This document shows positions 6,526-43,431 of a DNA stretch of 64,000 nucleotides, piece by piece. Source of the DNA: Cudoniella acicularis (Eukaryota > Ascomycota > Leotiomycetes > Helotiales > Helotiaceae); assembly GCA_013054445.1 (NCBI GenBank), contig JAAMPI010000092.1:1-64000 (forward strand), in the 5' to 3' direction. Position numbers and translations under genes: made by a program. The notes beneath the pieces were generated by a model that was not told the DNA's origin, did not search any database, and saw only the letters and a list, made by a program, of their open reading frames with translations. Position 1 is the stretch's first letter, and every line of letters starts with the position of its first letter.

Positions 6526-8364
6526 CTACCAAGGAACCGCCGTATCCAAAGTAGGAACTCCTTGACCCCGCCCACGACCTCTCCAAGAGGTTTCGGAGTG
6601 CCCGGCTCTGCTAGGTCTTGGTCCACGTTCGTTTCCTGCCCCTGAAGCAGACGGCTTGACGACAGCACCTCTTCCAGAGGTTCGTCCCTCTCCACCTCCA
6701 CGCGCCCTACTTGCTCCTGGCACGTCCGCGACAATGTTTAATCCAGGGGTGCCCTTCAATCCCATTTTCCCGACGACTTTCTTTGTGATGCCTGGTATTT
6801 CTGAAGCTCCCAGACCTTCGAGGGCGAACTTGTTTGCTTCTTTAATGAGAGTAACAGTGTCCCAGCCCATGGCTTTGAAATGCGTTTTGTAGAATCCCAA
6901 CCACGCCTGGTACGTCTTGGCTTGAGTCTCCATTCGCTCCGTTACAGCTGTCACTGCTTCCTTCGCACTCAGATCTGCTGGCGTATCCTCGAAATTAATC
7001 TCTTTCAAGGTCCATTTGGGGAAGAATGTTTCAGGCTGTGCGACAATGAATGTTCCTCTCCCTTCCTTCCCAGCACGAGCAGTTCGTCCTAATCGGTGGA
7101 TATATGATTCCTTATCTGAAGGTATGCCGACCTGGAAAACGTTCGTTACATCCGGAAAATCCATGCCTCTTGCCACCACATCTGTAGCAATCAAGATTCC
7201 ATTCTTTGCCTCTCTAAACGCATTTGTCGCAGCGGTTCTCTTCCCTTGAGCGACACGCGAGTGCAGCACATTGACATTTGGCATATTGGGCATAGCTTGG
7301 AGTACCGCGCCGTAGAAGTCTACGAGCGCTGCTGTTGGTGCAAATACTATGGCTTTGAAAGTATCCGCACCCTCGATTGCGATTTCTGAGCGCAGGGAAC
7401 CAATCAAGGCGGCCGCAACGTCAGAAAATGCAGGCACAACGACAAGGTGCTGCGGCACACGTTCGTGGGTATTGATCTCGCCTTCAGGGATGGTCGAGAT
7501 GAATTTGTAGTCTTTTGCCAAGACGAGATGTGCGACTTTTTCGACGTGTGGTGCAATTGTTGCAGAGAAGAGCATGCCCTGTCTGTTGGTTTTCGCCTTA
7601 TCTGGAAGATGGCTGACAATCTTCTTCAGATCATTCATAAATCCCATATCGAGTAGTCGATCGGCTTCATCGAGAACGAGGGTATCGAGGTTTCGGAAAG
7701 CATCTCTGATTCGTTCATCGCTCAAGTGATCGAGAAGTCGCCCTGGTGTAGCAATGAGAATATCACAGCCTCCTAAAATCTGCTTCTCCTCCGTGTTCTT
7801 GTTTGTACCCCCAATCGCGAAGCTGATCTTATATCGTGGGAGTCGTTTCAGGAGTGCTGTTGCTTCTTTGGCAATTTGCATGGACAATTCGCGTGTTGGC
7901 GAGATGACGAGGAGAGAGACCCCAGAGCCGTTTCCTCGGTTTTTGTTGATGAGGGTTTGGATTGCTGGAAGTAGAAATGCTACCGTCTTTCCCGTTCCAG
8001 TCTTTGCTTGTGCCAAACAATCAATTCGGTTTGCGAGCAGCTCGTGGAGAGTTGCGGCTTGTACTGGCATCATATGGTCGAACTTGAGATCCTCAGTGAT
8101 TGTTTGTAGCACGACAGGATGTATCAGATTTTCCTTGCCTAAATCTGCAAAGCGTGGAGTATCCAAAGGAACAGGTGCTGTGAGAGGTGGTGTTGACACT
8201 CGAGGAATAGGAGGCGCGATTTGTTGTGAAGGACCGCTTGTTGAAAATGGCTTCTTACCTTTGTAAGGTTGCCTTCTGGCTGGTGTTCTTTTGGAGTCCT
8301 GCATCGTGATGTTGATGAGGTTTCGCAGAACTTGACTGCGACGTAAAGTGGAAATAGAGAACAT
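6526..8364 (-). CDS. Mitochondrial DEAD-box ATP-dependent RNA helicase (MSS116-like)
   Basis: Intronless, 612 residues from the ATG at 8364. The frame opens six codons earlier, but with a TTG. The helicase motifs appear in order: Q-motif region (D-H-M-M-P-V-Q), Walker A A-K-T-G-T-G-K-T, P-T-R-E-L, A-T-P-G-R, D-E-A-D, S-A-T, the I-V-F-A-P-T strand, A-T-D-V-V-A-R-G-M-D-F-P-D-V and H-R-L-G-R-T-A-R-A-G. The N-terminus is short, basic and Ser/Leu-rich, with few acidic residues, like a mitochondrial targeting peptide. The C-terminus is a Gly/Arg/Ser-rich tail typical of the MSS116/CYT-19 group, which remodels group I/II introns and mitochondrial RNA. All key residues are intact. Exact orthology to yeast MSS116 is inferred from motifs and the leader. 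Confidence 0.93.
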   Translation of the reverse strand: MFSISTLRRSQVLRNLINITMQDSKRTPARRQPYKGKKPFSTSGPSQQIAPPIPRVSTPPLTAPVPLDTPRFADLGKENLIHPVVLQTITEDLKFDHMMPVQAATLHELLANRIDCLAQAKTGTGKTVAFLLPAIQTLINKNRGNGSGVSLLVISPTRELSMQIAKEATALLKRLPRYKISFAIGGTNKNTEEKQILGGCDILIATPGRLLDHLSDERIRDAFRNLDTLVLDEADRLLDMGFMNDLKKIVSHLPDKAKTNRQGMLFSATIAPHVEKVAHLVLAKDYKFISTIPEGEINTHERVPQHLVVVPAFSDVAAALIGSLRSEIAIEGADTFKAIVFAPTAALVDFYGAVLQAMPNMPNVNVLHSRVAQGKRTAATNAFREAKNGILIATDVVARGMDFPDVTNVFQVGIPSDKESYIHRLGRTARAGKEGRGTFIVAQPETFFPKWTLKEINFEDTPADLSAKEAVTAVTERMETQAKTYQAWLGFYKTHFKAMGWDTVTLIKEANKFALEGLGASEIPGITKKVVGKMGLKGTPGLNIVADVPGASRARGGGEGRTSGRGAVVKPSASGAGNERGPRPSRAGHSETSWRGRGRGQGVPTLDTAVPW

Positions 8365-9417
8365 GGATACGGTTTTTGACAAAGAAGATTTTCGTTCGGA
8401 AACTTCAAAGGAACAAGTCGTTACTGACTCAGCACGATAACGATAAGAAGGTGCAGGGAAAGGAAGGTTAAGCGAGGGGGGTACTCGGATAAAAAGGGGG
8501 CGGCTTAGGGGAAAAGGTGGTTTCTTATGGTGAGATACAGACTACGAGACTTTTTAACTCGGCATTCGACACAGAAATTTAAAATTATACATAAAAGTTT
8601 CAAAACTATTAGTTTTCTAAATAATCACAATCTGTGGATGACTAACAAGCAGCGCCAAGGTGAGATCTCATCTAATATGCTCCACAGTTTAGCACTTTAT
8701 TTGTATAATTACTTCCATACGGGCGAGAATCGTTTCTTAGGGCCTTGCGCTGCGCATATCATTCTTATTAATAAATCCAACTGGAGCGATTATGGCATCA
8801 ATTTAACATTTTTGGCACAGTCACGTGGATATTACTTGTATTTGCTCTCTATTGTTTTTGCATCCCAATTCCAACTCAAGCAAACTTTCAGAAGAATTTA
8901 GAAGGAGTCCAAATGTAAGAATCAATCTAACTCTAAATTATTTAAGTTATTATTGATTTCTATTTTTTATCACATCCACCGCAAGTTGGATTATCACGTG
9001 ATTTCGTGAAAAAGCACCTCGAACGTTAATTCAAATGAAGATAAGCTAGCGTACGAGGCCTAAATATACAATTCTAGTAGGAGCTTCATATGGGTCTACC
9101 TATTCTAAGTAAAGTAATTATTCTTAGTTATTTTATAACTTTGAAGTGTTTTTGCGGGTTTTCGCTTAGACGCTAACTTACGGCACGTGAGATACTTTTG
9201 AAATATTTTCGAAGCTCATTATGAGCGGCCAGCAAGCATGGAAAGACTGTCATTTGTAAATTTTCATAAGTGACTAGAGATAAAAAATGGACACAACGTG
9301 ATATCAAAGCATGCCAGATGCTCTAAGAGTTATATTTTATTACAGAAAAGTTATAATACCAGTCCAGCCGGCAATCCACATCAGAAAATAGACAATGCGA
9401 CCGTCACATCAGAGCCC
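8365..9417. other. Intergenic, AT-rich
   Basis: Upstream of the helicase on its strand and downstream of the next minus-strand gene. No conserved coding frame was seen; open frames are short and AT-rich. Confidence 0.6.
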
Positions 9418-10996: not shown

Positions 10997-12115
10997 CTAG
11001 GCGCGAAGTGTAGCCAAGTGATGACCCGTATCCAACCCCACCAGATTAGAGCTTTGTCCATCACAAACCTGGATCGCCTGCACTGGCTCTGTGGGACTGT
11101 GGTATAAGCCATGAAGTTGAGGAATCTCCGCCATAAAGCCATCCCTTCTCGCTCCCCATCGGTATTCAATCTTGTCAAACCCAACACCCAACGCCCTCAA
11201 CCCATGCTGAATAGCTGCGTCCAAGAAACCATCCATGTCCGCCGCCCGCTGCAACTTATCGGGTGCCGATTGAGTTCGGAAATAGGGCTCGAAAAGTGAG
11301 TTGAATAATTCCAAGTACGGTGTTTTCTTGTAATAGTCTGGGCTGGGTCTTTCCGCATTCCGGATGGCGAACCTGCTGATATAAACGGGTACTTTAGAAA
11401 ACACTGAACCAAGGAACTTGTTAGCCCACATTTCGAAGGAGAGGAGGGTATAGGGTAGCAAAGATAGGAACATACATTCAACTCCCCGAATCAAATCTCG
11501 GAGTTTATCAAGAGCGTATATATCCACGGGCTGTAAAGGAAGAAGTGATTGGCGCGGGTTTCCTTCAACCGAGATACTCTTCAGGAGAATTGAGAATAGA
11601 ATATAGTGAAACATGGGTTTGCGGGTTCTGCTATTCTCGAGAAGGGTACAAATTTCTTCGGGGGTGTAGTTATGTGGATTGGGGAAAAGACTGGTGTCTT
11701 TGCCCTGAGTGATGAACTCAATGGGAGGTGGCTCTGGAAAGAGCAAGGCTTCAATTCGAGCCACAGAATCTTTTATCGTTGGAGATGACGAGCCGTAAAC
11801 TATCCATTTGCCAAGGTAGATGTTTATGGAAGATGCCAGGTCACAGTAGGAAGAAAGCAGGTTGGAATCTGAATCCGCTAGGTCGGTGTTGTGTACCCCT
11901 GGACCGCCCCATACCTTGGGGTATTTGGCGAGTTGCCGTTCCACTGTGGCAATTTTGTCGTTGGCCTGATTCAGTTCTTGCTCGAATGCTTGCTGTTGCT
12001 GCGTACGATGGCGCCGAAAGCGAAGAAACAAAAATGCAAATATTGAGAGGAGAATGCATACACACAGAAGCAGTGGGAGGGTTATGGCAAGCGCCAATGA
12101 GGTTTCGGAAATCAT
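10997..12115 (-). CDS. Membrane-anchored fungal protein of unknown function
   Basis: An open frame of 372 codons from the ATG at 12115. Residues about 7-32 form one hydrophobic segment (A-L-A-I-T-L-P-L-L-L-C-V) followed by R-F-R-R-H-R, so the protein is probably single-pass with a cytosolic or lumenal soluble body. A Gln/Glu-rich stretch follows, possibly a coiled coil. A good intron, 11404-11475 (gtatgt, gctaac branch, ttcag), lies inside the frame. Its 72 bp is a multiple of three and contains no stop, so both spliced (348 aa) and retained (372 aa) products are readable. The spliced form is more likely given the consensus sites. I do not recognise the soluble domain. Confidence 0.6.
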   Translation of the reverse strand: MISETSLALAITLPLLLCVCILLSIFAFLFLRFRRHRTQQQQAFEQELNQANDKIATVERQLAKYPKVWGGPGVHNTDLADSDSNLLSSYCDLASSINIYLGKWIVYGSSSPTIKDSVARIEALLFPEPPPIEFITQGKDTSLFPNPHNYTPEEICTLLENSRTRKPMFHYILFSILLKSISVEGNPRQSLLPLQPVDIYALDKLRDLIRGVECMFLSLLPYTLLSFEMWANKFLGSVFSKVPVYISRFAIRNAERPSPDYYKKTPYLELFNSLFEPYFRTQSAPDKLQRAADMDGFLDAAIQHGLRALGVGFDKIEYRWGARRDGFMAEIPQLHGLYHSPTEPVQAIQVCDGQSSNLVGLDTGHHLATLRA

Positions 12116-13019
12116 AGTGGATGCTGAATGCTCTGCCTTCGTGGGCAGAGTTGTCGAGAGGGTAAGATCTTACAAAAATTAGGGGCAAGTGCTGTTTGAA
12201 GTCGAATAACTTTCTTTGTCTGCCCTCGAACGCCACGTTTAAAAGCTATACTGCTTTCTAACCGCTTTTCTCCCGATTTCTTTGACATTTTCTTTGACAT
12301 GTCTCTTGGAGATACAACCAGACGAGCCTCAGCTTTTCGAAATCCTCGTGTCCAAAAAAGGATGTCTCGTTCACGATTATTGGGTTTTCTACGGGACTCA
12401 CTGCGGGACGTAAGGCAGGTATCCGAAAATAGGACCCGTGATGAAGGCTAAAGCCATTCCCGGAGCGGATATCCCGCCCTTCAAGTCCCCCCTTTTGGAG
12501 CCCCACAGTCGTGTAAATTTTATGCCGCGACAACATAAACAGGACGGTCATAAAGCTTTATCGCGTATCGAATTATTCCTCTGCATGAATCGATTTTTGC
12601 CTGCAATTGGGATTTTACGTTCAAGTATTTCCTTTTTCAGGCTTTTTTTCGTGCGTAGTGGCTGTATGCAAAAGCTCCTGAATTCATGGTTCACCGTCAT
12701 TTAATCGCGGCACAAGGCCTGGTTAGATTCTGGGAAGAATCACAAGTGTCTTAAACTGGGCCTCTCGCTCTGATGGTAGTGCCCGGGCGTCAGGAAGCGT
12801 TCTAGGAACATCATCTTTGTTGTCTTTCCTCCATTATCAGAAAACTGCATGTAGCCGCTTCAAGCAATGCACGCGAATCGCAACCCAAAATCTTTCAATT
12901 AGGTATGAAGACATTGAGAAAACCTTCCGTGATGTTGACAGGTCCTTTCCGCGCGACGAACTGGGGATAAAGAGCAGTCCTGTCCGCGCGAAGGATCCCA
13001 TCGACCATCGACGACTTCA
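12116..13019. other. Intergenic
   Basis: Upstream regions of the divergent membrane protein (minus) and Hsp70-like relic (plus). No coding signal recognised. Confidence 0.55.
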
Positions 13020-14987
13020 ATGGCGCTCGGAGCAAAAGAGACAGTGATATGTGTTGATTTCGGAATGACAGGCTCTGGTAAGTTCAGGATCCTTTTCAAC
13101 CATTTTCCCAAAGCAGCTTCTGAAATTCGGGATTCCTGGCAGTGGCAAGATGGCGGCTTCCGAACGAGCCGTGGTCAGATACCAACAAACTCAAAAAGAC
13201 TCCGACTAGAGTGGCATATAACCCCTAGGACATCGCAGGTCCTCCCATTGTATGGGGAGCTGCCTGTGGCAGACTGCCGCCCAGCCAGATCAAAGAATGC
13301 TTCAAAACCTTCATTGGAGCTACCGACTTCTCTGTCGACGCCAACGCTTTCCCCTGGGTACCCACTTCGCAAACAGAGCTCCATCGCTGGGTTCGCGACT
13401 ATTTGCTGATGCTCTGTGCTAACGTTGTGTCGACCATCAACATAAGAGCAGCGCCAGGCTAGCAAGATGCGGACATTACTTGGAACTTTACCGTGCCGGG
13501 CAGTTGGGCGAAATTTCCAGTAGTGGCGGACTTCAGGAGGTTAGCAGAAGATGCTATTTCCAGCAGCTTTGAGAATACAAAAAGTGTCCGTGTTTGCTGC
13601 GATGTGACAGAGGCGACCGCGTCTGCTCTTTCTCTCCTGGTCAACATCGACAACGAGGCAGCTCCAACTCAAGAGAGGCGCTATAACATTGGCAACACGG
13701 TTATTACTTGCGATATTGGCGGTTCGACAACGGATACTGCTGTCTCGACAGTGTCTAGTGCGGGAAGGCTGCACACCTGGCCGCAGTTGGAGTCAGTCTC
13801 AACTGGTACTGTGACCATCGAGAAAGCCTTCTGGCTCCATGCGAGGGAGATTTTACAGAGCGCGGGAGTTTCGGACCCCGACCTTGTTGCACTAGAGGTC
13901 ACCCGAAGCTGGAGATTTCGAGATACATATGTCAAGTTTGCGAATCACCGGAGTGACCAGCCCCTGCGCGTCGAGATCAAGCTCCCGGCGGATTTTCATT
14001 TGCTGGCGTGGGAGCCACAGGAACCACCTCAAGCCAACTTATCAATTATCTGAGAAGGGTCACTTTTTATACATAGGTACATATATCCCTGGCATTATGT
14101 TCTTTGTCTCCCTCTAATAGTCGTTGCTGAAGGGGCGTATTCGAGTCGTTCTATACCGATTTCGTGGAACAAATCGAAGAAGCTATTGACGAAGCTGTCA
14201 ACAAATTAGCTGAGAAGAGAAAGTACCCGGTAAGTACTAGAGATCCTAGACCTTCCTATATCTAATTGATCAAGACTGTCATCGGGCTCTGTGGAGGAGG
14301 ATCTCGAATACTGTATGCAGTACATCGTCTTCAACGCAGATATGGAGATGTACTTTGTACCTTGGGCCACACACAAACCACCATTTTCCCGTGGGTGCCT
14401 CCCCTCTCTAGTCCCGTGCTTGAGTATTCTAACATCCACAGGGAGATGGCAACTGTCATAGGCAATTCTTTGATGTGGGACCAATCGAGACTCAAGGAAT
14501 TCACAAGTGTGACGAGTTTTGCTATTGAAACGAGAGAGGGGATTGAATGGAGGCGTTCTGAAGCAAATCTTGTAAGCAGAATATCACTTGCCGGGATTTT
14601 CTAACAGGATGACTAGAAACCGTCAACCTTTGCTGGAGCATACAAATGGTTTGTCAGTTTTACCTGCAGTAAAAATGGTGATCGCAGTACGCATAAGATC
14701 ATCGCCGTGCCATCGAACTCTGCTCTCCCCAACAAATTTTCAGATGGTAAGAGTAATTCCCCGAGCGCCGAAGTCTGCTAACTTCCGAAGCTTCGCAGAT
14801 CTTGGATTCTATAAGTTGGGTCGTTCGCGTGGACCTCAGAAATGAAAAAAGGGGTGGGCTATTTGGGAAGAGAAAGTACCGAATTATTTGCTACATCGCT
14901 GGCCCACTGGACATCATGATCAAAGCCAAGTCTCTTGTGGGTGATGAAGATATTGCGTGCACAGTTCAGAGGGTTGGGAGGCAATGA
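13020..14987 (+). pseudogene. Hsp70-like ATPase, broken by stops and frame changes
   Basis: The first exon (13020-13077) encodes an actin-like ATPase phosphate-1 motif, V-I-C-V-D-F-G-M-T-G-S. A gtaagt...ggcag intron (13078-13142) follows. The next frame carries P-P-I-V-W-G-A-A-C-G and, at 13680-13745, the phosphate-2 motif C-D-I-G-G-S-T-T-D-T-A. This frame is cut by TAG at 13226-13228 and 13460-13462. Near 13980 the recognisable sequence moves to another frame (G-F-S-F-A-G-V-G-A-T-G-T-T-S-S). Later pieces (F-Y-T-D-F-V-E-Q-I-E-E-A-I; G-G-G-S-R-I-L-Y-A) and a final segment ending at 14987 still look Hsp70-like. The family is the expanded fungal Hsp70-like group often linked to heterokaryon-incompatibility genes. 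Coding function is lost unless these are sequencing errors. Confidence 0.78.
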
Positions 14988-15554
14988 GCGAAGACCAGTT
15001 CAAAAATTCAGCAACTTACATCTTTAAAACATTCTTTCCCTCGGCTGACACTGCACCTTCTCTCCTTGGCGCTCTCACTTCATAATGCCCTCTCCTGAAA
15101 TATTTCACTTAAATTTACTATCCCAGTCAGGGGCTCCTTCCCTAACAAAACCCGAAACTGTACTTTTCTCATTGATTTTTCGGTATATCTTGCTGTGTAC
15201 CTTTTTGATTAATCGTTAGAAATTCGGCAAAGACTTTATAATCACAAATCCTTACTTTACCTCAACTTGTCACTCTCGAAAACCGCAAGCGCAAGTGCAT
15301 ATCTCAGGTGTCAGGGGTAATTATTCGGGTGTCAAAGTCTACCATGGTGCTCGAAAAAAAAATTCTAGTCAGATTATCGTCTTTCGAAAGAAGGTAAAAG
15401 CATTTCAATCTACCAAGCTACCAATATATCAAGGAAAGCACACACCCGCGTCCTCAGCCACCTCTCTCCCCCGACTCCACTCCTTCAAATCCATTCAGAC
15501 ACACCCTCCCATCTTCCATATCGCACACTACTGATCTCCCATCACGCCCACACT
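14988..15554. other. Intergenic
   Basis: Lies downstream of both the Hsp70-like relic and the RiPP-type precursor gene, which converge here. No coding signal seen. Confidence 0.6.
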
Positions 15555-15979
15555 CTACTCATCACCTCCCTCCAACTCCTCCCTAGCATACTGCGCATAA
15601 ATCCGAAATCCGCCGCCACCATTCCCATTAACAGGCTCTCTCTTCTCCTCCCTTTTCTCTTTCAACCCAGCATCGGCTTCTTCCCTAGCATATTGCGCAT
15701 AGATTTTGAACCCTTCACCGCCGCCGTTGACAGGGCTGGGGTCACGCGTTCCGAAGGCGATAGGGGTGTCAGAGCGTTTTTCAACCCCGTTGACGAGTTG
15801 CCGGGTGTAAATTACGAATTCGGGGTCTGGGGGGTTTATGTTAGTGACCGTTGTGTTGGTGGGATAAAAGATTGAGCCAGCAGATGGGGTAGAGATGTAC
15901 CTGGAGAAGCGACAGGGACTGCAGAGACAGTGGTGGTGATTGCCAGAGCGAAGGTGGCAAGGATGGTAGAGAAATGCAT
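15555..15979 (-). CDS. Candidate dikaritin-type RiPP precursor (secreted, Kex2-processed repeats)
   Basis: Two exons, 15901-15979 and 15555-15826, with a 74-bp intron (gtacat, cactaac branch, cccccag), give 116 residues. Residues 1-20 are a clear signal peptide ending T-T-T-V-S-A. The mature part holds three related units centred on F30-V-I-Y-T-R-Q, F66-K-I-Y-A-Q-Y and F100-R-I-Y-A-Q-Y. The last two sit in a longer repeat: P-V-N-G, a Gly-rich spacer, F-(K/R)-I-Y-A-Q-Y-A-R-E-E. Dibasic K-R sites at 43-44, 84-85 and 88-89 suit Kex2 cleavage. This is the architecture of dikaritin precursors (ustiloxin, phomopsin, asperipin, epichloecyclin types), in which an aromatic-rich core is excised and cyclised. 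The neighbour at 16709, facing away across 0.73 kb, encodes a UstYa-family protein, and a second follows. Precursor role is inferred; the gene structure is seen. Confidence 0.82.
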
Positions 15980-16708
15980 TTTGGAAGAGAAGAAGCGATT
16001 TTGCGGTGTTTGCGGTGTTTGCGTTGTTTGAAGTTACTTTGAGAAGTTGTGGAGGAAGGAATGTTATCTGATTGAGGAGACTGATGAGAAAGTTGAGAGA
16101 TCAGGCGAATGACTTCCTTTTAACTCTTGTCTCGAAGTCTCGAGGGATGATCAAAACGTCACAGTGTAATAATAATTCAGACTTTTATTCATGCGGTTCA
16201 CTTGCGTTCCGAAAATTCCTACCGTCCTGTTGCAGTTCCAACGGATCAAGACGTGGGAGTATATCGTCTCGCAGCATTTCTTGGTATTTGAAGTGCGTAA
16301 CGAGGTTCAAGCTGAACAAGGTGGAATATGGTGTTGTAACCTGTCAGCAGGAACGCGGAACCCGCATTTGGTTAAAAGAGAGTTCATGCGAAGCGCAAAG
16401 GATTCAACTTCTAACTATCTGAAACGTTTCAAACTTCACTTAGAAATAATCCCCACTTGCTAATCGAGGGGAAGGTTGAAGTTCGGTATACTTCCATTTT
16501 TAAGGAAGGGTCCTGAAGCATAGGGCTTTACCGCGCATGTCTTATGTACCCTTCCCACGGCTATTTTGGCTGCACAATGCTGCCTCGCTACGCTCCACCT
16601 CTAATATCTTCTACTCTCGAACATTAATTGTGCAATGCAAATACCTGCGATTCTCCAAGCTCCCCCATACCCAATTGCCCATCAATCATTCCCCTTCTGA
16701 CTCAAAAA
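15980..16708. promoter_or_regulatory. Bidirectional intergenic region of the RiPP-type locus
   Basis: 729 bp between the divergent starts of the precursor (minus) and the first UstYa gene (plus), suited to shared control. Tandem TTTGCGG(T)GT units lie at about 16000-16030, just upstream of the precursor start. No specific operator was identified. Confidence 0.5.
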
Positions 16709-17826
16709 ATGTCTCTCGACCTTAAATCTTCTTGGAAAAAACTATCAAGTGCGAAATTGGGTTCGTGGTCACCGCTTTCTCAGCAACGGTCCAAAATGGA
16801 TATGCCTCAGGACGACAACGAGCACTTGATGTCGGACAGCAGATCATCAACAGAGGTTGACGACTCTTATTATCCCCAGAAACCTCGAAATTGGTCCCGG
16901 GGTTGGGTTCTACACCTACTCATTCTCGGAATAAATATCGGGTTTGGAATCTTCATGCTGCGAGCATCGAGAACTTCAATAATCTGTCCAGAATCAACGT
17001 CTCAAGAATCATTAGAATTTGGGAAATTAAGAAAACACGAACTTGGTATTTATGTTCACATTCGATTTTTGCGAAACACTACTAATGACAGGATTAGTAC
17101 TCACTGAACCGGTCATTGAATATCAAGACCAGGTCTTTATATCCAGTGGTTTCCACCGGCATGCGCACGATGAGCCATCCATCTATGAAACTCCTCGAAC
17201 CCACGAGACAGACAAAGCGTGGGAGAAACTCACTACAGGTAGGCAAAAATCTCTCTAAACCCATAATTCTATATATTTACAAGGGTTTAATTTCTGACAA
17301 AACTCGATCGATTCAGTGGGATTCGTGTCCCTAACAGCGGAGCAAAACTCACAGCTTGCAAACTCCACCGTGGAGTCTCTCTCTCGGCCCGGAACATACC
17401 CCGTAGCTCTCGGAGTATTCCATCAACTGCACTGCCTCGTAAGATTACTATTATATTCCTAAGTTCAAAATAAAATTTTGTGTCCTGACAAAAGAGCGCA
17501 GAATTACATCCGCATCCTCCTATTCCCCCAAGAAGGCGACGGGAAAGGAGAGACAGATGCCCAGAGAGCACATCACAAGAATCACTGTTTGGATTACCTC
17601 CGACAAGTTGTTCAATGCCATGGCGGTAAGATTTCTCTCTTCATTTTGGAAATTTAAGAGTAAAGGTTGGACTAACGATGTCTTAGATACCACACCCCTC
17701 TCCGTGTATTATGAGAAGACACACTCCGGGTACGCGTTTGATCATGCTGTCACTCACAGCTGCAGGAATTTCGACAAGATTTATGATTGGGCTGCCGAAA
17801 ATGCGGCGGATTTGCATATCGAATGA
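16709..17826 (+). CDS. UstYa-family (DUF3328) oxidase, copy 1
   Basis: Five exons: 16709-17045, 17098-17238, 17317-17438, 17502-17625 and 17687-17826. All introns are GT-AG and the total is 287 residues. The first acceptor could also be six bases upstream (17091) without changing frame. The layout is typical of UstYa/UstYb: an acidic cytosolic N-terminus, one membrane segment at about 66-84 ([15 protein letters not shown]), then the lumenal domain. Both signature motifs are present: H195-Q-L-H-C-L and, 28 residues on, H228-C-L-D-Y-L-R-Q...C-H-G-D. In known clusters these proteins catalyse oxidative macrocyclisation of the precursor core through Tyr/Phe side chains. Pairing with the divergent precursor gene supports that role here. 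Ends H-I-E, TGA at 17824. Confidence 0.92.
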
Positions 17827-18579
17827 TTCGTTTCGCTTTTTGTTAGCGATTCGCGCTTGAAAGTGCAATGTATAGAGCTTAGAATATTTGTTTGAAATTG
17901 AAATCGTGGAAAACCCATTATTCCTTTGCCTGGTTAAGACAATTTGCCTCAGGGTGTGAGATTGGAAAAGGTTGTCTTGTGATCTTGAGAGAAGAGATTA
18001 AGTGAGAGGATAGTGCGTTTGAAAAAAGAACACTAGCCGGATATCCTAGGTACCAGACCTCAGTGTAAATCTCCTCTGCATGTCTTATCTTGATATTTTA
18101 GCGTTTTATTTTAGGCAGAATCCTCCCTTATTTAGTCGTCTCGGGACAGTTAGATTTGGTCGTTACATTTTACGTTGATAGAGCTATGTAACCTTATCAA
18201 ATGATGTTCACGTGAGGAGAGGTACTTACAAAAGGAGAGGTGCTTAGAAAAGGAGAGGTGCTTAGAAAAGGAGAGGTGCTTAGAAAAGGAGAGGTGCTTA
18301 GAAAAGGAGAGGTGCTTAGAAAAGGAGGGGTAATCAAAAAACTTGAGAAATTCATGATCTATAATAGATGGATTCTTACGATTCAAAAGTTTAATCATGA
18401 TATTAAAATCTGACTATAGATACCTCACTTCAAACTTTAATAAGACCCTCGACTTATTCCCCTTACTAAAACCCAACTCCCGACCCCTCTTACACATACA
18501 AACCCCACTATTTAAATCCCACTCCTATCCCCGCCCATTTCACTCACCAACCAACCAAACACATGGCGCAATTCACACC
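17827..18579. other. Intergenic between convergent UstYa genes
   Basis: Terminator regions of the two convergent UstYa genes plus the 18-bp minisatellite listed separately. No other coding signal. Confidence 0.6.
18217..18342. repeat. 18-bp minisatellite (gagaggtgcttagaaaag)
   Basis: Seven units in tandem. The middle five (18235-18324) are identical; the first and last are diverged. Because 18 is divisible by three, the minus strand reads as an open frame with the hexapeptide F-S-K-H-L-S repeated. That frame has no signal peptide, so I treat it as a minisatellite between the two UstYa genes. Confidence 0.9.
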
Positions 18580-19794
18580 TCAGGCAACACCCAACCCACT
18601 CGTATTCCTCCCCCTCGCCCACTCATAAATGCCCTCCCAATCTCTACACGTATGCCTAATTCGAAAATCCGGCTTATACCTCCCCTCATTCTTTTCATCT
18701 CGTTCAAGAGTAATTGGCGTTAGATCCTGTTTATTTCTCAGCGCCCCCTTTATATCACAGCAGAGAAGAAGAGACAGATAGGATGAAGAAGCAGAAAGAT
18801 GACTTACGCCATGGCACATAAGTACTTGACGGAGGTAATCAATACAATGTACTGTTGTAATTTATTTTGTTAGTTTAGACTTCGGGTTTTTAAGTGAAAG
18901 TGGGGATGGGGATAGGGATGGGGAGAGGGGGAAGGAAATCACACACCAAGATGTCTCTCCCTCGACCATTCACTCTCGTGCTCATGATGCTGCCCACCCT
19001 TTGCATAACTCGCTTGGCGTAAATAATCCTATCCCACATATCAACATCTCCCCATCTCTTTCACCTTTCCATAACAAAAAAACGAGGTGTAAAAGGGAGA
19101 AAGGGAGACATACCAAACAATGCAACTGATGAAACACCTCTAGCGTAACAAGATACTCCCCCTTCACATCCCCATTTATATCAGTAAGCTCCGCCGTCTC
19201 GAGATTTTCTAATTGGGAGTATTCTTTTGAGGTGAGGACGACGTTCCCTACTGTGGATGTTTTATGAGGTTAGTTGGAGGCTTGAAGACCGGGTGGAGCG
19301 GCTGGAAGGATGTGAAATACCATCGATTAATTCCTGCCACTTCTCGTTGGTTACTGAGGACGGTGTACCGATGTAGGCATTATTTGGTTCTTCTTTCTCG
19401 GTGGAGGAGAAGCCACTAGGATCGAAATACACCGTTTTATAGCTAACTGCTTGTTTGGCGAATGCTTTATATTTAAATAAAATCAGTAATGTTTCCCTCT
19501 TAATTGTGATTGAGGAGAGAAAATGGAGAACTTGCGCAATTCAGAGGGTAGTAAATCGCCTACACGAGGGTAAAAGTGGGAGATTATCAGGAGGGCGGAG
19601 AGGAGGAGGAGGAGGATGTGGATGGTGATTTGGTATGCCGTGTATGAAGCTTTTTGGTTAGGGAATTTGGGGAGGAAGGCGTTGTGTATCGTTGTTAGGT
19701 GGTGGTGATGAAGTGATGAGTTTGAATTCTCGATATTGACATTAACATCTTCGTGTTTGAGGGGGGTATAGTGGACAGTTGAATGAGGGGACAT
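18580..19794 (-). CDS. UstYa-family (DUF3328) oxidase, copy 2
   Basis: Six exons on the minus strand: 19536-19794, 19321-19464, 19114-19247, 18947-19028, 18808-18851 and 18580-18726. Together they give 269 residues. Four introns are GT-AG. The first, 19465-19535, uses a GC donor (gcaagt), and only that choice keeps the frame. Residues about 53-72 form one membrane segment (Y-Q-I-T-I-H-I-L-L-L-L-L-S-A-L-L-I-I). Both family signatures are present: H174[10 protein letters not shown] and H208-C-I-D-Y-L-R-Q...C-H-G-D. A His/Glu-rich insert (G-Q-H-H-E-H-E-S-E) lies between them. Two UstYa proteins per precursor is common in dikaritin clusters and fits more than one ring closure. It converges on copy 1. 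Confidence 0.9.
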
Positions 19795-22700
19795 TTTGTT
19801 ATATTGCTCAGTCGGAGAAAGTAGATGAATTTCACCCCGCGCAATTGTCGAGAAAAGCCAAATTTGGCTTAGCAGAGAAAGCGAAACAGTGTGAAAAGTA
19901 GCTGAGTAAAAGTTTAGAAACAACGAGGTCCATCCAGAGAAAGAGACCTAGAGAGACATCTAGATCGCGGCCGTGTTGGCGAAAAACTTAGCCCCGGTAT
20001 AATCAGGCCCACAACATTGAATGCTACTTTCTGTTGACGCCTCTTCGCCGCCTTCAGAGATAGACACTTGATACATAAGGATGAAAGGTTTCAGATTCCG
20101 ACTCTTCTGCGTGACGATGTCATGTTGGGGTTTGATATTGCACAGCACCGCACCGCATAGCGCAGATGTCTCGAACTTCAAAGCATCTGCGCTTCCATCA
20201 AAAATCCCCAAAAAATCACTCACGATTTTTGAAGTCCTAGTCGCTATTTCAGTTAAAGCGAGAACGCTGCTTTCGGAAATTTTGGTGCGGCGGTAGTATC
20301 AGAAAATAGGGAAGCTCGAGTCGAGAATTATGGATGTTTCATGTCGCGATAAGGTTATTTAAATATAGCGTCGGGAAAAGAACATCCAAATGATCCAATA
20401 ATAATTTATAAATAGTAAAATAAGATACCAAGCAAGATATATGAATTACACGTGAAATAGATACTTGAAATCAGAAAATTCAATCAGAAAGAAGAGAGGT
20501 TGGCCCTGCTGAGGAGCTGGAAGAGAATTCAAAAGGGGTCGTTTCTGAAGGGGGCTTTTTTGGAACGTACCTGCACATTATTCACATGCGTTTGAAGATG
20601 AGAACTCATGCAGAACCGTTAGCTGCATGCAAAAACCACACTCGCTGTGTACCACTGCACCTTCATGTCGGTTTGCCAGAGACTTGTGAACAACTGTAAT
20701 TTCCGTGGTCGAAAATCTTTTCTCGTGGTACCGTGGCGCGGACAAGCTTTTTGGCGTTGCGCCTAATGCAAAGGCACTTCCAATGATACGCAAACACTGC
20801 AGTGCATCATGTGTGCCACAGTAGTTCGGGAAAGATTTCTCCAGCCAATTCCGGTTCAGGCGTTTGCGAATAGGGGTAGAAGCGGGTGACCACAGATTCT
20901 GACTTGTTTTAAGGGGTTCTGCGTCCAAGAATCTATTGATTGCTCGTACTCCCGCAATAGTAGTAGAATAGTTGCGTCTAATAACTTGATGATGGCTGAA
21001 TTGTAATCGGAAGAGATGCTGGAGGATTTCTGGAAGGAGCTTCTTGTGGCCAGAAAAGGTGGAGAATGAAGGACGTGTTGAAATTCTAAAAATCTTGGGT
21101 GAAAGCATGCCTGTTGAACCCCTGAAATCACATTTTCGTGTCTGAGAAAGGTGCTTGGTCGTGAAAAAGAAACGTGATACAGGTACCCTCATTCCAGGTG
21201 CAAAAATGGTGGCGTTTTTCGTTTGAATGCTGTGCTTCCAGGCTTGCTTCTTCCCGAGACAGGCCACGTCATGGACGTTTGTGGAGCGGACAATTTTATG
21301 AGACATCTCAACATCAACGTCCATCGATCTCACAGTGCTCACTGCCATGTCTGCGATATTTCCGCAACATGCTTTCTATCATCCTGTATTTTTGTATCAC
21401 CTTGTCTCTCGAAATCCCTCTTCAGAGCCCACGTCGCCCCCGAACACAAACAAAGCACCTTCGCCATACCTGTATCGTGCACGATTGATGAGCCAAGGCC
21501 AACAATATCTTGATTTCCCCGCGCATCGTATCTCGAAATCTCATCATTGCCCCTTTTGGACGATGAATGGTCTCGACTGCTCGCCGGGGTCGGTCTTCTA
21601 CCAGAAGCCTTCATCCCAAATGAGAAGGTCGCTTCAGGACTACTGTTGTTAGACCAAGAGCTAGAATCTAGCTGGTCTTTCGGGTCGAAGGCAAACGCTG
21701 AATTGAAGCCTGAAGATGTACTCTCTTGGAGATCCCGAAGCCAAAAGGAACTATCTGGAATCAATAGGATATTGTACAAGACCCTGGCCGACTCCTTTTC
21801 GCAATTGTCCGCGGTCGATTCGTCGAGGCTTTGGTGTTGTTCAAAGGTTGTTAAAGGCTGCGTCCAATGCCTTGGGATGGCCATCAGCTAGACGCACGCA
21901 CACACCGGGAGGCACCTTCGAAATGCCTTCTCGGTGGGCCAGCACAATACCATGTCTTATCGCGTTGCTCCTGTATGCTTGAGGGAAATTAGCCATCCCC
22001 GTGTTGTTCGTCCTTGCTGGTGGAGAACCTCGGTCCTTTGAAAGGGGCAAAATAATGCCAAGGGGGTATCTTCAGGAGAACAGTCCGGCGGTCTTGGGCC
22101 TAATAATAGATGGATCTCGAGATCTCCATATCGGGATCCGGAACCATTTCGCGCATCGGTTGGTTTGTTCTCGCTCTTCTTGGCCTTCTATCTATCGGGT
22201 GTGTTCAGCGACCAGAGCGCTGCAGCAGCTAGCCGGTACCCTATGATAGCTCCTATCATGGACCCTATCGGAATTCGAACAGGGGCGCGAGGCGGGGGAT
22301 CTACAGGCGACAGACTCCCCAGGTACCTAGGTACACGGCAGCTTCAAGACGCAGAGATGCGCCTTCCCAGTAAGTCAAATCGGATACTGTGCTTTCCCTG
22401 TGCTCTCCTAGCCTTGAAGCCTCTTTCCTGGTTAAGTAATTGTAAGCAGCAAAAGCGGTGGCCAATAATTGTCCCTTTTGGCTTGATGTTGAAGATTTCC
22501 AAAGGTGTAGCGTTGCCGAGAATAAAAATATTGGTGCAGAACACGGTACGACTCTAGTACTGTTGCGCTGCAGTCTATGGTGACTCGTGAGCTGGTACTC
22601 AGGTAGCCATACCATGTTTTCCCTGCTTCCTCTCGTTGATCTTGTCCAGGTGGGCCGGCAGTGCTACAGCAGTAGTCTTCAGCCTCCAGATCACCTCCAA

Positions 22701-22923: not shown

Positions 22924-25900
22924 ATGCCTCGCATCCTCTCCACACTCATTCTCGCTCTTGTTCTCTCCTTTTTTGTTTGTAATGTCAATTCACTCGCTTC
23001 TACGGACACCATCACATGGGGTGGTGATAATTCCCGAACCGGATACCAAACGTAAATTCCTCACAATGCCATAATTTCTCTTGCTGACTTCTCTAGTAAT
23101 CATAATATGGACCCATCGATTGTTGGAAGCTCCCAGTTTGGTCAGCTGTTCAAGACTCTCCTTCCAGGCAGTTACAATGGTGCTCCAGAGCAAATTTACT
23201 CCCAGCCATTGGTGTACACAACCTCTGATGGCGTGCAATACATCTATGTGGCTACCACACAGAACAATCTTTACAAACTTAACGCAAAGACTGGTGCCAT
23301 TGTCGCTCAAAGGAACCTTCACATTCCGTTCCTGACCGCAGATCTAAACGGCTGTGTGGATATTAACCCACACGTCGGAGTTACTGCGACTGGAGTCATC
23401 GATCCAGACACTGATACTCTGTATTTGACGTCGAAGACCTACGCAAACCAATCTGGTGGTAACGGTCCTCAAGGAAGGCCAGCCGGTCGATATTACTTAC
23501 ACGCCATCAATGTTAATGATCTTTCCGAACAACCAAACTTCCCTGTCGATCTGGAGGGCACTGTAGCAAGAAATAATCCAATTCGAAGCTTCAATGGTGG
23601 TATCCATCACCAGCGCCCAGCTCTTATTCACACGGGCCAATTCATATATGCTGGGTTCGCCTCCCATTGCGTTCAGTGGAATTTTACTGGATGGATTATG
23701 GGTTGGGACAAAACTACCGGTGCTAATGTTGAGCGATGGGCTATGGAAGGTGCTGGTGTTCCGAATACCACTCCAGGAGGTGGTATATGGATGTCTGGTG
23801 GCGGTATCTCATCAGATGATGCCGGATCACTATTTCTAGCGTCAGGAAATGGCTACGCTTCCCAACTCAGCACGATTCCCGTCAATGGTCGCAATCCCCC
23901 AACTGCTTTAGAAGAAGCAGCATTACACTTGACTATCAATTCGGATGGTAGTCTTACCATCGTGGACTTTTTCATGCCCTGGGAAAAGACACAACTGGAC
24001 GGCGCTGATCGAGATCTTGGTACCACACCTCTCGAATTGCTACCCAGCGAGTTTTCTTGTGGCGACATCAAGCGCATCGGTGTGGTCACGGGCAAGAGTG
24101 GGAAAACTTATTGGTTGAATTTGGATGATTTGGGAGGATACCAGAATGGGCCAAATAAACTTGATGATATAATCCAAGTCTACCAAAACGAAAATTCCGT
24201 TTATTCTGGAGCTGGTGTTTATCCTTTGGAGGGTGGATATATTTACATCAATGGTAAGTCTAGATTTTTAGTTGAATTGGGCCCTCATCCGATGTATCAC
24301 TGCATAAGTTCCTATCCTCGAAGCTAATGAGGGTCAATAGTTATTCAATACCCTACCCACGTCTTCAAATTCAGTTGCTCAAATGGTGCCCCTTCCTTTA
24401 CGAAAGTTGCCGATTCCCCAGGCAATAACGCATACGTCCTGGGTACTGGACACGGAACCGTCACATCTCTCAACGGCCAACCTGGAACGGGACTTCTCTG
24501 GACCAGTGACGTTCAAGGGTTAAATCTTCGAATTTACAATGCCGTTCCCCAAAATGGCAATTTGACCATGATCAATTCCTTCAACATTCCCGGTGTAACA
24601 AAGTTTACCAGACCAGTCTTCGGTGATGGTCGAGTGTATATTGGAACGAATTTAGGATATATCTATGGTTTCGGGTCACCAGTTAACCTTCCCATTAACT
24701 GCACATCTCCACTTAACTTTGGAACTGCAAACCTCAATACCCCAACAGCACAAATCACTATCAATTGCACGACAAACATTCTTGTCACGGTTTCAAACAT
24801 CACTTTGACTGGAGATCCTAATTTCAATATCTCGGGCTTGCCAACACTTCCTCTTACAGTTGCAGCTGATAGCACCTTCAGTTTCCAGGCTGCATTTAAC
24901 CCACAAACAGTTGGACCCCTGTCTTCTGATGTCCTAGTTGGTACGACTAATGGTATTGCTGGTTACAGTATCAGCACGCCAATCACCTTGAGGGGTGCTG
25001 GCCAAAGCGTAAATCCTCTGCTAGTTGTCAGCCCCGTAACCTTAGCTTTCCAAGGTGTCATTACGGGGGCACAAGTCGGAGGAGTTAACGAGTCCGTCAT
25101 TTTCACAAACCTTGGGAATTCCGATTTGACAATTTCGAACATTCTTTTCAGCGTCACCAGCGAAACTGGACCTTTTGTTCCCGCTAATATTACCTCTTCT
25201 GGTTCTCAGGTGGGACCCTTCACATTCATTGGTCTTCCATCTGTCATTCCTGGTAACTCTGGGGTCACTGTCACTGTCAACTTCGACACGTCAGTTAGTG
25301 GCAATTTTGCGACATATATCAACGTTCTCTCAGATGGTGGTGAAAAGATTTTTGATACTGTGGGGACTTCTGGGTCGGCTCCAGTGGCTCTTCTTGAGTT
25401 CCAAACTCCGGATGGCCAAGAATGGGTTCAATACCAACAGGGTCAAAATTTCACGTTTGGCAATGTGACGGAGAACACCACCCGCTACTTGAAAATGCGC
25501 TTAACGAACAATGCCACCGCAGATAGCGCTAGGCTTTCCCTCACTGTTTCAAAACCTCCATTTGGTGTTGCCGGAATAATTGGCGCCAACAACCAAGTCG
25601 ATCTAGCCGAAGGTACCACTCTAGCTCCCGGCGAAAACGCGACTGCGACTCTCTATTGCTCGGTTCCGAAAGAGCAATGGAATACGGATCCTTACTCTGG
25701 AAATGCTCAATGGACGATGAACGTGGATGATCCTAATTTTGGAAAGCAATACATTCAATTTGATTGCAATGCTGTGTCGGAGCAAGCACCTCCTTTGCAG
25801 CCAAATGGTTTAGGATTTTACCGCTATACGGGATGTTTCAAGGATAATAATCCTGGCCGTCAGTTGAAGACCCAGCTATACAGCAGTCCAAATAATACCG

Positions 25901-28267
25901 AAGCTATGTGTATTTCAGTTTGCACTGCAGCTGGTCTGACCTTCTGTGGAACCCAGTATACCCAAGAGTGCTGGGGTGGACCAAATATCCCTAATCTGAT
26001 GGTCGACGATAGCAACTGCAATTATGCCTGCACCGGTGATGTCAATCAGATTTGCGGAGGCAACGGTGTTGGCTCTAATGCTGGCGGGAGTTACATCTCC
26101 CTGTTTGCTGATTCTCGAACCTTTAATGGCAACATGACTACAACTACTCCGACCGGTCCTTTTGTGAATCCAGGCGTTGGTGGATACACGAGCTTGGGCT
26201 GTTACACAGAAGGAAATGGTGTCCGAGCTCTTCAGCAACAAATTACTCCGGTAGCAAAGACAGTAGCCAACTGTGTTGCTGGATGTTCGGCCTCAAGCTA
26301 TCAATATGCTGGTTTGGAATATGGTGGGGAGTGTTGGTGTGGCAATTATTTGGGAACTGGCTCTGTTCCTACGGCCTCTACCGATTGCTCTATGACTTGT
26401 GCTGATAACAGTACCGAGTATTGTGGTGCTAGTAGCAGACTCAATATCTACCAACGCGGCAACGGCATTGTGAGTCTATCAAGTAGTTCATCCACCAGTT
26501 CGTCTAGCAGTTCGTTGGCTACAAGCTCCGCACCCACATTAAGTGGTAATTTCTCCACAACACTCACATCATCCATTTCAACTACCCAGCCAGCGATGCC
26601 TACACCAACAGGTCCTCAGATCAAACAGTTTGTTGGTAATTGGGCATTCCAGGGATGCTGGACTGAGGGAATCAATACGCGTGCGCTTTCAAGCAAAACC
26701 TACGCCAATGACTCTATGACCTTAGAGTCTTGTGCGGCATTTTGCACCAGCTATATAATGTTCGGTGTTGAATATGGTCGAGAATGTAAGTCGATTCGAT
26801 TCGAGTCCTAGCCTTGAGACTGACCTTGCTTTAGGTTATTGCGGTAACATATTGGCTCCAAGCAGTATGAACGCCACCTCCCAGTCTGATTGTTATTTCC
26901 TATGTCCCGGAAATGGTCTCGAGTTCTGCGGGGCTAGTAATCGTCTTGAGCTGTATGCCGCTATATCTTCGGCAACCTCAACAACCGTTGCCTCAAATAC
27001 GTCCACAGCGCTTACCAATGTTCCTACTACAATTGACACGGCAACAATGACAAAATCTTCAGTCACTCTTTCATCTAGTACAAGCAGCTCCCAGGGATCT
27101 GCTCTCTCTACTGTCGTCCCCACAAATTCTTCAACTATATCTAGCGGGTCAGCACCATCCTCGACATCTTCGGCCATCACCTCATCCTCGACGAGTGTAT
27201 CAAGTCTGATTTTATCGAATATTTCCAGCGGGTCGGTAACATCGTCAGCATCTTCAGCAACAATAACCTTGTCCTTGGCAAGCAGTTCGAGCGCAGTTCC
27301 ATCCACTTCGTCTACCAGCACCTCGACTCAAACTGAGCCTACCATCGTACCTTCTGCTGGTCCTTATAGATATCTCGGCTGCTACACTGATGCAACAAAC
27401 GCTCGAGCTTTAAGTTCTGCGTTTTATCCAAATAACACCAACACAATTGCCCTATGCGCAAGCGAATGCTCGGCATACACTTACTTCGGCGCCGAGTATG
27501 GAAGAGAATGTTGGTGTGGAAATTCTTTTGGCGCTGGCTCAGTCATTACCCAAGACAGTGACTGCAGCATAACATGTGCGGGCGACCCAACCAGTTACTG
27601 CGGGGCAGGCAATCGACTGAGTGTTTACATCAAGAATGGAACACTCTCTTCTGGGGGCTCAAATTTCAGCCAAAACTTAGTTGCCGTCCCAGCACTCATC
27701 GGCACATCGTTATTATCCCAGTCTTTATCAACCGGAACATCTTCGTCCAGCTCAGTAGTGTCTCCCAGCAGCGCGCCATCCACAACCTCAAGCTCTCTCC
27801 TCTCTAGCTCTAGCAGCACCTCAACAAGCTCCGCCTCCTCAACATCCTCCAAACCAACCCCCGCGGTCTCCCCCGGCAACGCCAACTTCACCTACTTCTC
27901 CTGCGTCACAGAACCCTCCTCAGGCCGGCTCCTCCCCAGCCAAGTCCTCTACAACGGCACCGGCATGACGATCGAGATGTGTCTCTCGACCTGCTGGGAC
28001 TACGCCTACGCGGGCGTCGAGTATGGCCGTGAGTGCTGGTGCGGGAACACGCTCAACGTCGCTGGTAATCTTGGCGCTACGCCTAGCGCGAATGTCTCGG
28101 ACTCGCAGTGTAATTTCTTGTGTCCGGGAAATAGTACCGAGTATTGTGGTGCGGGGTCGAGGTTGAATTTGTATTGGTTTGATAGTGTGAAGGCTGCTGC
28201 TAATGCGAATGCGGGTGTGGTTGTGGGCGGGAATGCTACTTCGAGTGCGGTTTCGGTGCCGCTGTGA
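22924..28267 (+). CDS. Large secreted protein: beta-propeller-like, ASH-like and five WSC domains
   Basis: Four exons, 22924-23051, 23097-24253, 24341-26785 and 26835-28267, give 1720 residues with all introns GT-AG. A signal peptide (residues 1-24) is followed by a PQQ-type propeller-like region to about 590 (repeats such as Y-I-Y-V-A-T-T-Q-N-N-L-Y-K-L-N-A-K-T-G). From about 593 to 860 there are Ig-like repeats of the choice-of-anchor/ASH type (L-N-F-G-T-A-N-L; V-I-F-T-N-L-G-N-S-D-L-T-I). Five WSC modules then start near residues 920, 1042, 1195, 1421 and 1596, each with eight-cysteine patterns such as E-Y-G-R-E-C-W-C-G-N and Y-C-G-A-G. Ser/Thr-rich linkers, likely O-mannosylated, separate several of them. 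WSC domains bind cell-wall polysaccharide. No convincing GPI signal or membrane segment is visible at the C-terminus, so it is probably a secreted or wall-bound protein. Confidence 0.9.
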
Positions 28268-42359: not shown

Positions 42360-43431
42360 TTAATGCGCCTCCATAGCTTGCCTTCCAATAGTCTTAATGT
42401 CGGGAATATCTTTCAGCGCCTCTTGGAATTCAACCCATCCCTTCATCTTTTTCAATACGTGCTCTCCATACACCACCTCTTCGCCCTCGACACCTTTGAC
42501 CACACAATGGAGACCGGGTTCAAAGAAAAATGGAACAGAGTATCGTCCTGTTGCCGGATCCTGATGCTTCACAGCTCTGACTCGATGATAAGTAGCAACC
42601 CATCTTCCGCCACTAACCATCGCCATCAAGTCTCCGATATTAACCACAACGCTTCCTGGTACATATGGTGCGGCTATCCAGTCTCCCTTGCTATTTAGAA
42701 CTTCCAAGCCGCCAGTTTTATCTTGATGCAGGAGTGTAAGAATACCCGAGTCGGTATGTGGAGTGCAGATCAGTTTTTGTGTTCGAATAGTTGGCACTGG
42801 TGGATAATGGAGAAGTCGTAGAGTGCTGAGTGAATCTGTGAGGTAGTTGTCGAAAAAGGAGGGGGGCTTTCCAAGCGCAACAGCGAGAAGGGTCAGAATA
42901 CGAGTAGCAAGGCTTTGAAGCTCGGAGTGCAAGGTTTCACAGTGTGACCGCAAGAGAGGACGCGTAACAGGGAAGACATTCGGTTCGGTGAGGTTGAATT
43001 TGCGACCGGTGAGTGGAGATAAAGTTGTTGCAGCCCGCGTTGTGGGTGAGCCAATCTCAAAGCCTTCTTTGAGGTTATCGGCTCCAAGTTGAGGTGGGAA
43101 GTAGCTGGAAAGAACTGTTAGCACCGGCAATATCAAGAATGGGAGATACACACCCTCGATAAGTATTCTTGTTCTCCGCGACAAAGGTGTTCTTCGCCAG
43201 CTTCATCTTTTCCGATTCAGATAGCCCACTAGGACCAAAGAAGTTGGCGCACAACTCAAACACATCGTCGTGCGAGAAGGTCAGAGGAAGATCGGTCAGG
43301 TAGGCAAACCCAGTAGTAGCAAAGACTTCATCTAGTCGAGAAGACAGGGCAAGTAGAGCCTCATCTTTGGCAGTAGGAGAAGAGAGCACTGAGAGGGAGA
43401 CGATCGGAAGAGCAGAGAACGACGTCGACAT
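42360..43431 (-). CDS. 2-oxoglutarate/Fe(II)-dependent oxygenase (isopenicillin N synthase-like)
   Basis: Two exons, 43154-43431 and 42360-43104, with a 49-bp intron (gtgtgt...ttccag), give 340 residues. The N-terminal DIOX_N region (P-I-V-S-L-S-V-L; L-A-K-N-T-F) is followed by the jelly-roll core. The iron ligands are visible in T-P-H-T-D-S-G-I-L-T-L-L (about residue 209) and T-Y-H-R-V-R (about 263), with the 2OG-binding pair in G-R-Y-S-V-P-F-F. The usual length is about 330-350. Substrate unknown; relatives oxidise hormones or secondary metabolites. The SnoaL-like gene 1.1 kb upstream on the same strand may work in the same pathway, but this is inference only. Confidence 0.93.

Follow-up and report, generated by a model that had tools for sequence, protein, structure and literature searches.

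Dikaritins, in the broad definition, are ribosomally synthesised and post-translationally modified peptides (RiPPs) whose precursor, a KEX2-processed repeat protein (KEP), is cyclised by a UstYa homologue (PMC10512285). A 2022 review counts five known products and describes Kex2 processing followed by cyclisation by UstYa (PMC10512285). In the asperipin-2a system of Aspergillus flavus (aprA/aprY) a repeat precursor with the aromatic core FYYTGY is acted on by a UstYa-family cyclase (PMC6514808). The DUF3328/UstY enzymes have been described as using a dicopper site to form the Tyr-O to Phe-C-beta ether of asperipin-2a (PMC12186524), which has two ether rings (PMC9233826, PMC6514808). Here we describe a locus from Cudoniella acicularis, consisting of a precursor gene and two intact UstYa genes (UstYa-1 and UstYa-2), which is best read from its sequence as a minimal RiPP locus of the dikaritin type, in the broad sense that includes asperipin-like systems. 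It lies in the first 64,000 bases of contig C1749 (JAAMPI010000092.1), the whole stretch that was analysed and which we refer to as the window, in a genome of 53.2 Mb on 1836 contigs.

The three gene models are arranged as the initial annotation had proposed, with the precursor and UstYa-1 diverging and UstYa-2 converging on UstYa-1 (Table 1). The edges of the locus are exact: the precursor stop codon closes at 15555 and the UstYa-2 ATG opens at 19794. The features of a dikaritin in the broad sense found here are a signal-peptide-like start, cores separated by KR sites, adjoining UstYa genes and HxxHC motifs in their products. The earlier assignment to the dikaritin type is supported by the precursor, the Kex2-type sites, the two UstYa enzymes and the selection on the core that is described below.

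The locus resembles that of asperipin-2a in its repeat precursor, its aromatic core and its UstYa-family enzymes. The asperipin-2a cluster is described as having four genes and no tyrosinase (PMC6514808) and likewise no tyrosinase was found on contig C1749 among the at least 48 PF00264 genome matches listed. On the other hand the core differs and there are two UstYa genes here against one there. In a Pfam scan of the flanking sequence, covering 25 of the 52 open segments with a length of 70 amino acids or more and spanning 8.9-15.6 and 19.75-23.2 kb, where short exons could escape, no peptidase, methyltransferase, cytochrome P450, oxidoreductase or transporter domain was recognised, and the transporter and reductase genes of the asperipin-2a cluster have no recognised counterpart in these segments. 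The ustiloxin and phomopsin systems (ustA/phomA) share with this locus the signal peptide, the KR-bounded repeats and at least two UstYa homologues. Assignment to that subtype was rejected, however, because of the lack of a tyrosinase match on the contig and because the EDYxI core motif of the ustiloxin/phomopsin type (PMC6339444) is absent from FVIYTRQ, FKIYAQY and FRIYAQY. A further difference is that no methyltransferase was recognised in the flanking segments scanned. The epichloecyclins (gigA) also derive from imperfect repeats and have a DUF3328 gene, in a small four-gene cluster (PMC7317419). Their repeats, in contrast, are 27 amino acids long, and no kexin gene was recognised in the scanned segments flanking the present locus. 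Within the gigA core there is an F-K-I-x-Y stretch, and this would be the closest resemblance to the core found here.

Like the KEPs surveyed in 2019 and 2020, the precursor appears to be a secreted protein with peptides lying between dibasic sites. The 2020 survey, which found 838 KEP types, took at least three repeats of at least 8 amino acids between Kex2 sites as its rule (PMC7329392), and the other survey likewise demands at least three repeats (PMC6339444). The focal precursor, with two clear repeats and one diverged copy, falls short of this minimum and was therefore probably missed in both; its low repeat number suggests that surveys requiring three repeats undercount such loci.

The precursor gene encodes, as originally annotated, a 116-residue protein of signal-peptide type, with a hydrophobic start and three KR sites. 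The most hydrophobic 12-mer near the N-terminus is FSTILATFALAI, with a Kyte-Doolittle mean of 2.1, and is accompanied by a cleavage-like VSA-V; the start is thus signal-peptide-like, as for entry into the endoplasmic reticulum, a call made from hydropathy and inspection alone. The signal peptide is followed by VPVASPDPE, FVIYTRQ, LVNGVEKR, a spacer and GFKIYAQYAREE, and then by a spacer with KEKREEKR, by EPVNGNGGG, GFRIYAQYAREE, LEGGDE and the stop. Cleavage at the KR sites is predicted to give the fragments 21-44, 45-85 and 90-116, each with one core, together with one short linker, where the first fragment assumes signal cleavage after residue 20. With one alternative donor/acceptor pair the repeats also stay in frame; the protein then has 103 residues and lacks copy 1. 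No paralogue of the precursor was found in the genome at E≤10 when candidates from a quick first look were scored against the whole precursor. A search of a phage collection with the precursor gene gave, as expected, no match. An alpha-pheromone pattern, used for taxonomic placement, matched twice, and one of these matches carries an in-frame stop codon.

Evidence that the repeated peptide matters comes from comparing copies 2 and 3. Over GF(K/R)IYAQYAREE nine of the 36 bases differ, spread over seven codons, while only one of the 12 residues does. Six of the seven changed codons differ at the third base only and are silent; the seventh is AAA in one copy and CGG in the other (Lys/Arg). When nine random substitutions were simulated they caused a mean of about six residue changes, with one or fewer in just 1 of 200,000 trials, or in 10 of 200,000 if transitions were favoured. 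Because so few residue changes almost never arise by random substitution, the core peptide is under selection. Over the seven codons that follow the conserved block, up to the stop after copy 3, 13 of 21 bases differ. The IYAQYA codon pattern has a third match in the genome, on contig C1195, which was rejected as not being a precursor.

While two copies are clear, the third of the three Phe/Tyr repeats in the initial annotation is weak. FVIYTRQ, which had been taken as a diverged third copy, has only F, I and Y in common with the others in the ungapped register, keeping F-x-I-Y, and its inclusion is marginal. It can also be aligned after a three-residue gap, with Y-T-R-Q against Y-A-R-E, and since two alignments are possible the right edge of the core is uncertain. 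Moreover, conservation extends beyond FxIYAQY as far as AREE and no Kex2 site touches the core, so that the ends of the core, annotated as F-(K/R)-I-Y-A-Q-Y, are not fixed.

Both putative enzymes match the UstYa family profile PF11807 with scores far over the Pfam cut-off. UstYa-1 gives 147.3 bits (E=7.9e-43; residues 58-280, profile positions 2-220 of 220) and UstYa-2 gives 158.8 bits (E=2.4e-46; residues 59-252, profile positions 18-220 of 220). The motif HxxHC is described for UstYa proteins (PMC12048977) and occurs twice in each, as HQLHC (195) and HKNHC (225) in UstYa-1 and as HQLHC (165) and HLVHC (196) in UstYa-2, with a hydrophobic segment starting at residue 66 and residue 56 respectively. 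The splice sites, all GT-AG, were picked by hand for frame and family motifs. For the first intron of UstYa-2 a weak donor, GTGTAG, was picked because it keeps the frame, and for the first intron of UstYa-1 several acceptors are possible. Independent of splicing, an unspliced six-frame search placed 17103-17624 on the forward strand and 19099-19257 and 18607-18732 on the reverse strand over the family cut-off. Aligned over 168 residues, UstYa-1 and UstYa-2 share 37.5% identity. In an exon-by-exon search the best other match in the genome was for both a gene on contig C40, with 28% identity to UstYa-1 and 34% to UstYa-2, and therefore neither looks like a recent duplicate. A search by sequence for a solved relative of UstYa-1 returned a sole match, at E=1.3 and unrelated.

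It would seem very probable from these sequences that the locus makes a secreted peptide that is oxidised by its two UstYa enzymes and, judging from the enzyme family, likely that these enzymes cross-link it. The precursor would enter the secretory pathway through its signal peptide, and a Kex2 protease encoded elsewhere would cut after the Lys-Arg sites to release three fragments of one core each. The two UstYa proteins may then oxidatively couple an aromatic ring of the core to one of its other residues. The likeliest bonds would be ethers from a Tyr phenol O to a C-beta, along the ladder formed by Phe1, Tyr4 and Tyr7 (i, i+3, i+6). After trimming of the flanks, presumably by peptidases encoded elsewhere, one would expect a small peptide, cyclic or bicyclic, in two K/R variants that are nearly identical, with copy 1 perhaps giving a product with a single ring. 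A more specific version, which we put forward tentatively and consider somewhat unlikely in all its details, is that the two enzymes fold F-(K/R)-I-Y-A-Q-Y into a new bicycle with bonds from Tyr4-O to Phe1 C-beta and from Tyr7-O to Tyr4 C-beta, making two consecutive i,i+3 rings of 17 members, perhaps one per enzyme, and that FVIYTRQ would yield the single-ring analogue. The ring size is taken by analogy from arabipeptin A, for which a 17-membered ring has been reported (PMC11253845) and the substrate of which is named FLWGY (PMC12186524); on our own reading of this name its Tyr-O-Leu bond spans i,i+3.

By searching the genome with PF11807 we found at least 121 exon matches on 62 contigs, which form about 88 gene-like groups when matches on the same strand within 1 kb are joined. 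The 2020 survey reports 9399 DUF3328 genes in 1461 strains (PMC7329392), an average of about six per strain with yeasts included, so that on this rough comparison the genome is rich in UstYa genes, and a set of this size suggests a big arsenal of cyclic peptides. The survey of sister precursors covered 22 stretches, which lie on 21 of the other 61 UstYa contigs. When open frames carrying both repeats and dibasic pairs were scanned for, 11 of these 22 stretches gave a match compared with 5 of 220 Markov-simulated stretches, and 10 of 22 did so at three or more copies compared with none of 220; the remaining 58.5 kb of the window gave no match. Precursor-like proteins were read on 11 of the 21 contigs, with up to seven copies of the repeat, and none was read at this sensitivity on the other 10. 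A shadow frame led to those on C866 and C107, and that on C681 runs into the contig end and is less sure. Chance adjacency was rejected as the explanation, given that only about 2% of unrelated genes would be expected no farther than 5 kb from a UstYa group, a figure obtained by arithmetic from about 88 groups in 53.2 Mb. According to the 2020 survey, DUF3328 gene counts peak at the gene adjoining the KEP gene and Tyr is present in 65.6% of the repeats of DUF3328-linked KEPs (PMC7329392).

Several observations weigh against reading the locus as a dikaritin-type RiPP pathway. The focal precursor has only two good repeats and scores just two copies in the scan, a level reached by 5 of the 220 simulated stretches; its strength is in how long the match is, with 11 of 12 residues identical, and in the codon pattern. 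No Kex2 site directly follows its core, unlike in most of the sister precursors, and UstYa proteins serve non-RiPP pathways too (PMC12048977). Export and trimming are unexplained by the locus and, as no transporter or peptidase was recognised in the flanking segments scanned, must rely on genes elsewhere or on unrecognised genes; for ustiloxin B the proteases that trim the core are likewise given as unknown in one review (PMC6514808). A linear Kex2-processed peptide, signal- or pheromone-like, might instead be secreted and released unmodified, with the UstYa genes acting on something else. Linear KEPs likewise have a signal peptide, dibasic sites and repeats, the share of KEPs with a DUF3328 neighbour was a minority, 22%, in one survey (PMC7329392), and the N-terminus of the precursor matches MF_alpha_N below threshold (E=0.23), scoring 11.9 bits where the cut-off is 22. 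We nevertheless regard this as quite improbable, with two UstYa genes within 4 kb, one of them divergent with the precursor, and with a constrained block in which two Tyr and one Phe keep a fixed spacing; the survey, moreover, describes mating-factor and pheromone KEPs as being without DUF3328 neighbours, with three exceptions (PMC7329392).

The divergence of copy 1 and the low repeat number, compared with up to seven copies in sister loci, would also fit a decaying dikaritin precursor, in which once-numerous repeats have been reduced to two and a relic and little or no product is made. The open frame, the two intact UstYa genes and the synonymous bias in the divergence of copies 2 and 3 make this very improbable, and on the last of these grounds a precursor that is altogether dead was rejected. 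The closest alternative is some other oxidation of the peptide by the UstYa enzymes (hydroxylation, desaturation or halogenation) in which no ring is closed; up to its last step it is identical to the cross-linking pathway, so the probabilities given to the two overlap and do not sum to one. Family members of the cyclochlorotine cluster hydroxylate and chlorinate (PMC12048977), and others desaturate in the phomopsin pathway (PMC10512285). However, the combination of two or three aromatic residues per core with two UstYa copies resembles the ring-closing ustiloxin and asperipin-2a systems (PMC6514808), and oxidation without ring closure seems unlikely. Cross-linking of the core by its two UstYa enzymes is the reading that we prefer.

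The core, called unfamiliar in the initial annotation, appears to be new: a full-text search of the literature, which covered main texts, returned no paper with the string IYAQYA, and among the papers listed on the subject none names the core in its title or at the start of its abstract; both KEP surveys place their lists of sequences in supplements. The locus itself adds one to a large class that is already known, with many in this genome. Since it pairs two putative cyclases with a single repeated core, and no further tailoring gene was recognised, it would offer a simple test bed for asking which UstYa makes which bond. Its interest is in this sparse arrangement of two enzymes and in the core's aromatic ladder.

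Amongst the sister loci, a working model with a phase-1 intron at the same place as in the focal precursor was obtained for three of the six precursors modelled (L032, L013 and L030), with other donors also possible for L032 and L030; L027 and L029 are ambiguous and L028 gave no model. In at least L010, L024, L019 and L014 the signal peptide and repeats are in one open frame without an intron, and the phase-1 intron is therefore common to only part of the set. The L009/L010 locus (contig C279, 17.1 kb) is an enzyme-rich RiPP cluster, with six or seven UstYa groups around a precursor that has six STDGPSIAIPWTKNYGEY-type repeats. On the minus strand near the start of contig C866, L014 has a precursor with NDYAIR-type repeats, cut by the contig start and about 2.6 kb from a stop-free UstYa match; its YAI stretch recalls the ustiloxin type. 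The L025 precursor (contig C107) has HHTEAQIAAKKAKA repeats, recalling di-histidine KEP types (PMC7329392). Eight more KEP-like precursors lie beside UstYa genes (L013, L032, L024, L027, L028, L029, L030 and L019), with repeats such as NYYYYGE, ELDGDLYNYK, NEADVDSIQW and DGDDQVVYTWSKP. On three other contigs (C1370, C1160 and C1124) a tyrosinase match lies within 5 kb of a UstYa match, and these are candidate ustiloxin/phomopsin-type clusters.

Table 1. Features of the locus, in window coordinates. The positions of the Kex2-type sites were obtained by arithmetic from the residue numbers.
Feature	Position	Strand	Description
Precursor gene	15979..15555	-	116 aa after removal of one intron
Precursor exon 1	15901..15979	-	Signal peptide, MHFSTILATFALAITTTVSA-VPVASP
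Precursor intron	15827..15900	-	74 nt, GT-AG, phase 1, directly after the signal-peptide exon
Precursor exon 2	15555..15826	-	Cores, spacers and Kex2 sites, through the stop codon
Core copy 1	15798..15818	-	FVIYTRQ, diverged, from residue 30
Kex2-type site KR	15774..15779	-	Residues 43-44
Core copy 2	15690..15710	-	FKIYAQY, within GFKIYAQYAREE, from residue 66
Kex2-type site KR	15651..15656	-	Residues 84-85
Kex2-type site KR	15639..15644	-	Residues 88-89
Core copy 3	15588..15608	-	FRIYAQY, within GFRIYAQYAREE, from residue 100
Intergenic region	15980..16708		729 bp between the start codons of the precursor and UstYa-1; presumed shared promoter
Nine-base tandem repeat	16000-16030		TTTGCGGTG, 3.4 copies, just upstream of the precursor ATG
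UstYa-1	16709..17826	+	5 exons, 4 introns, 287 aa
Tandem array	18215-18331		18-bp unit, 6.5 copies, 96% match, between the convergent UstYa-1 and UstYa-2
UstYa-2	19794..18580	-	6 exons, 5 introns, 260 aa

No RNA family was found at threshold within 14000-21500. One flanking segment, 11000-12169, has a match to DUF3377 that is under the cut-off. Farther out are a DEAD helicase (6529-8541) and segments with WSC domains (24331-28264). Pfam matches far from the locus include a 2OG-Fe(II) oxygenase at 42363-43202 and a SnoaL-like protein at 44563-45342 of the window, followed by a Velvet factor at 50675-51904 and a Zn2Cys6 regulator at 52615-53388.

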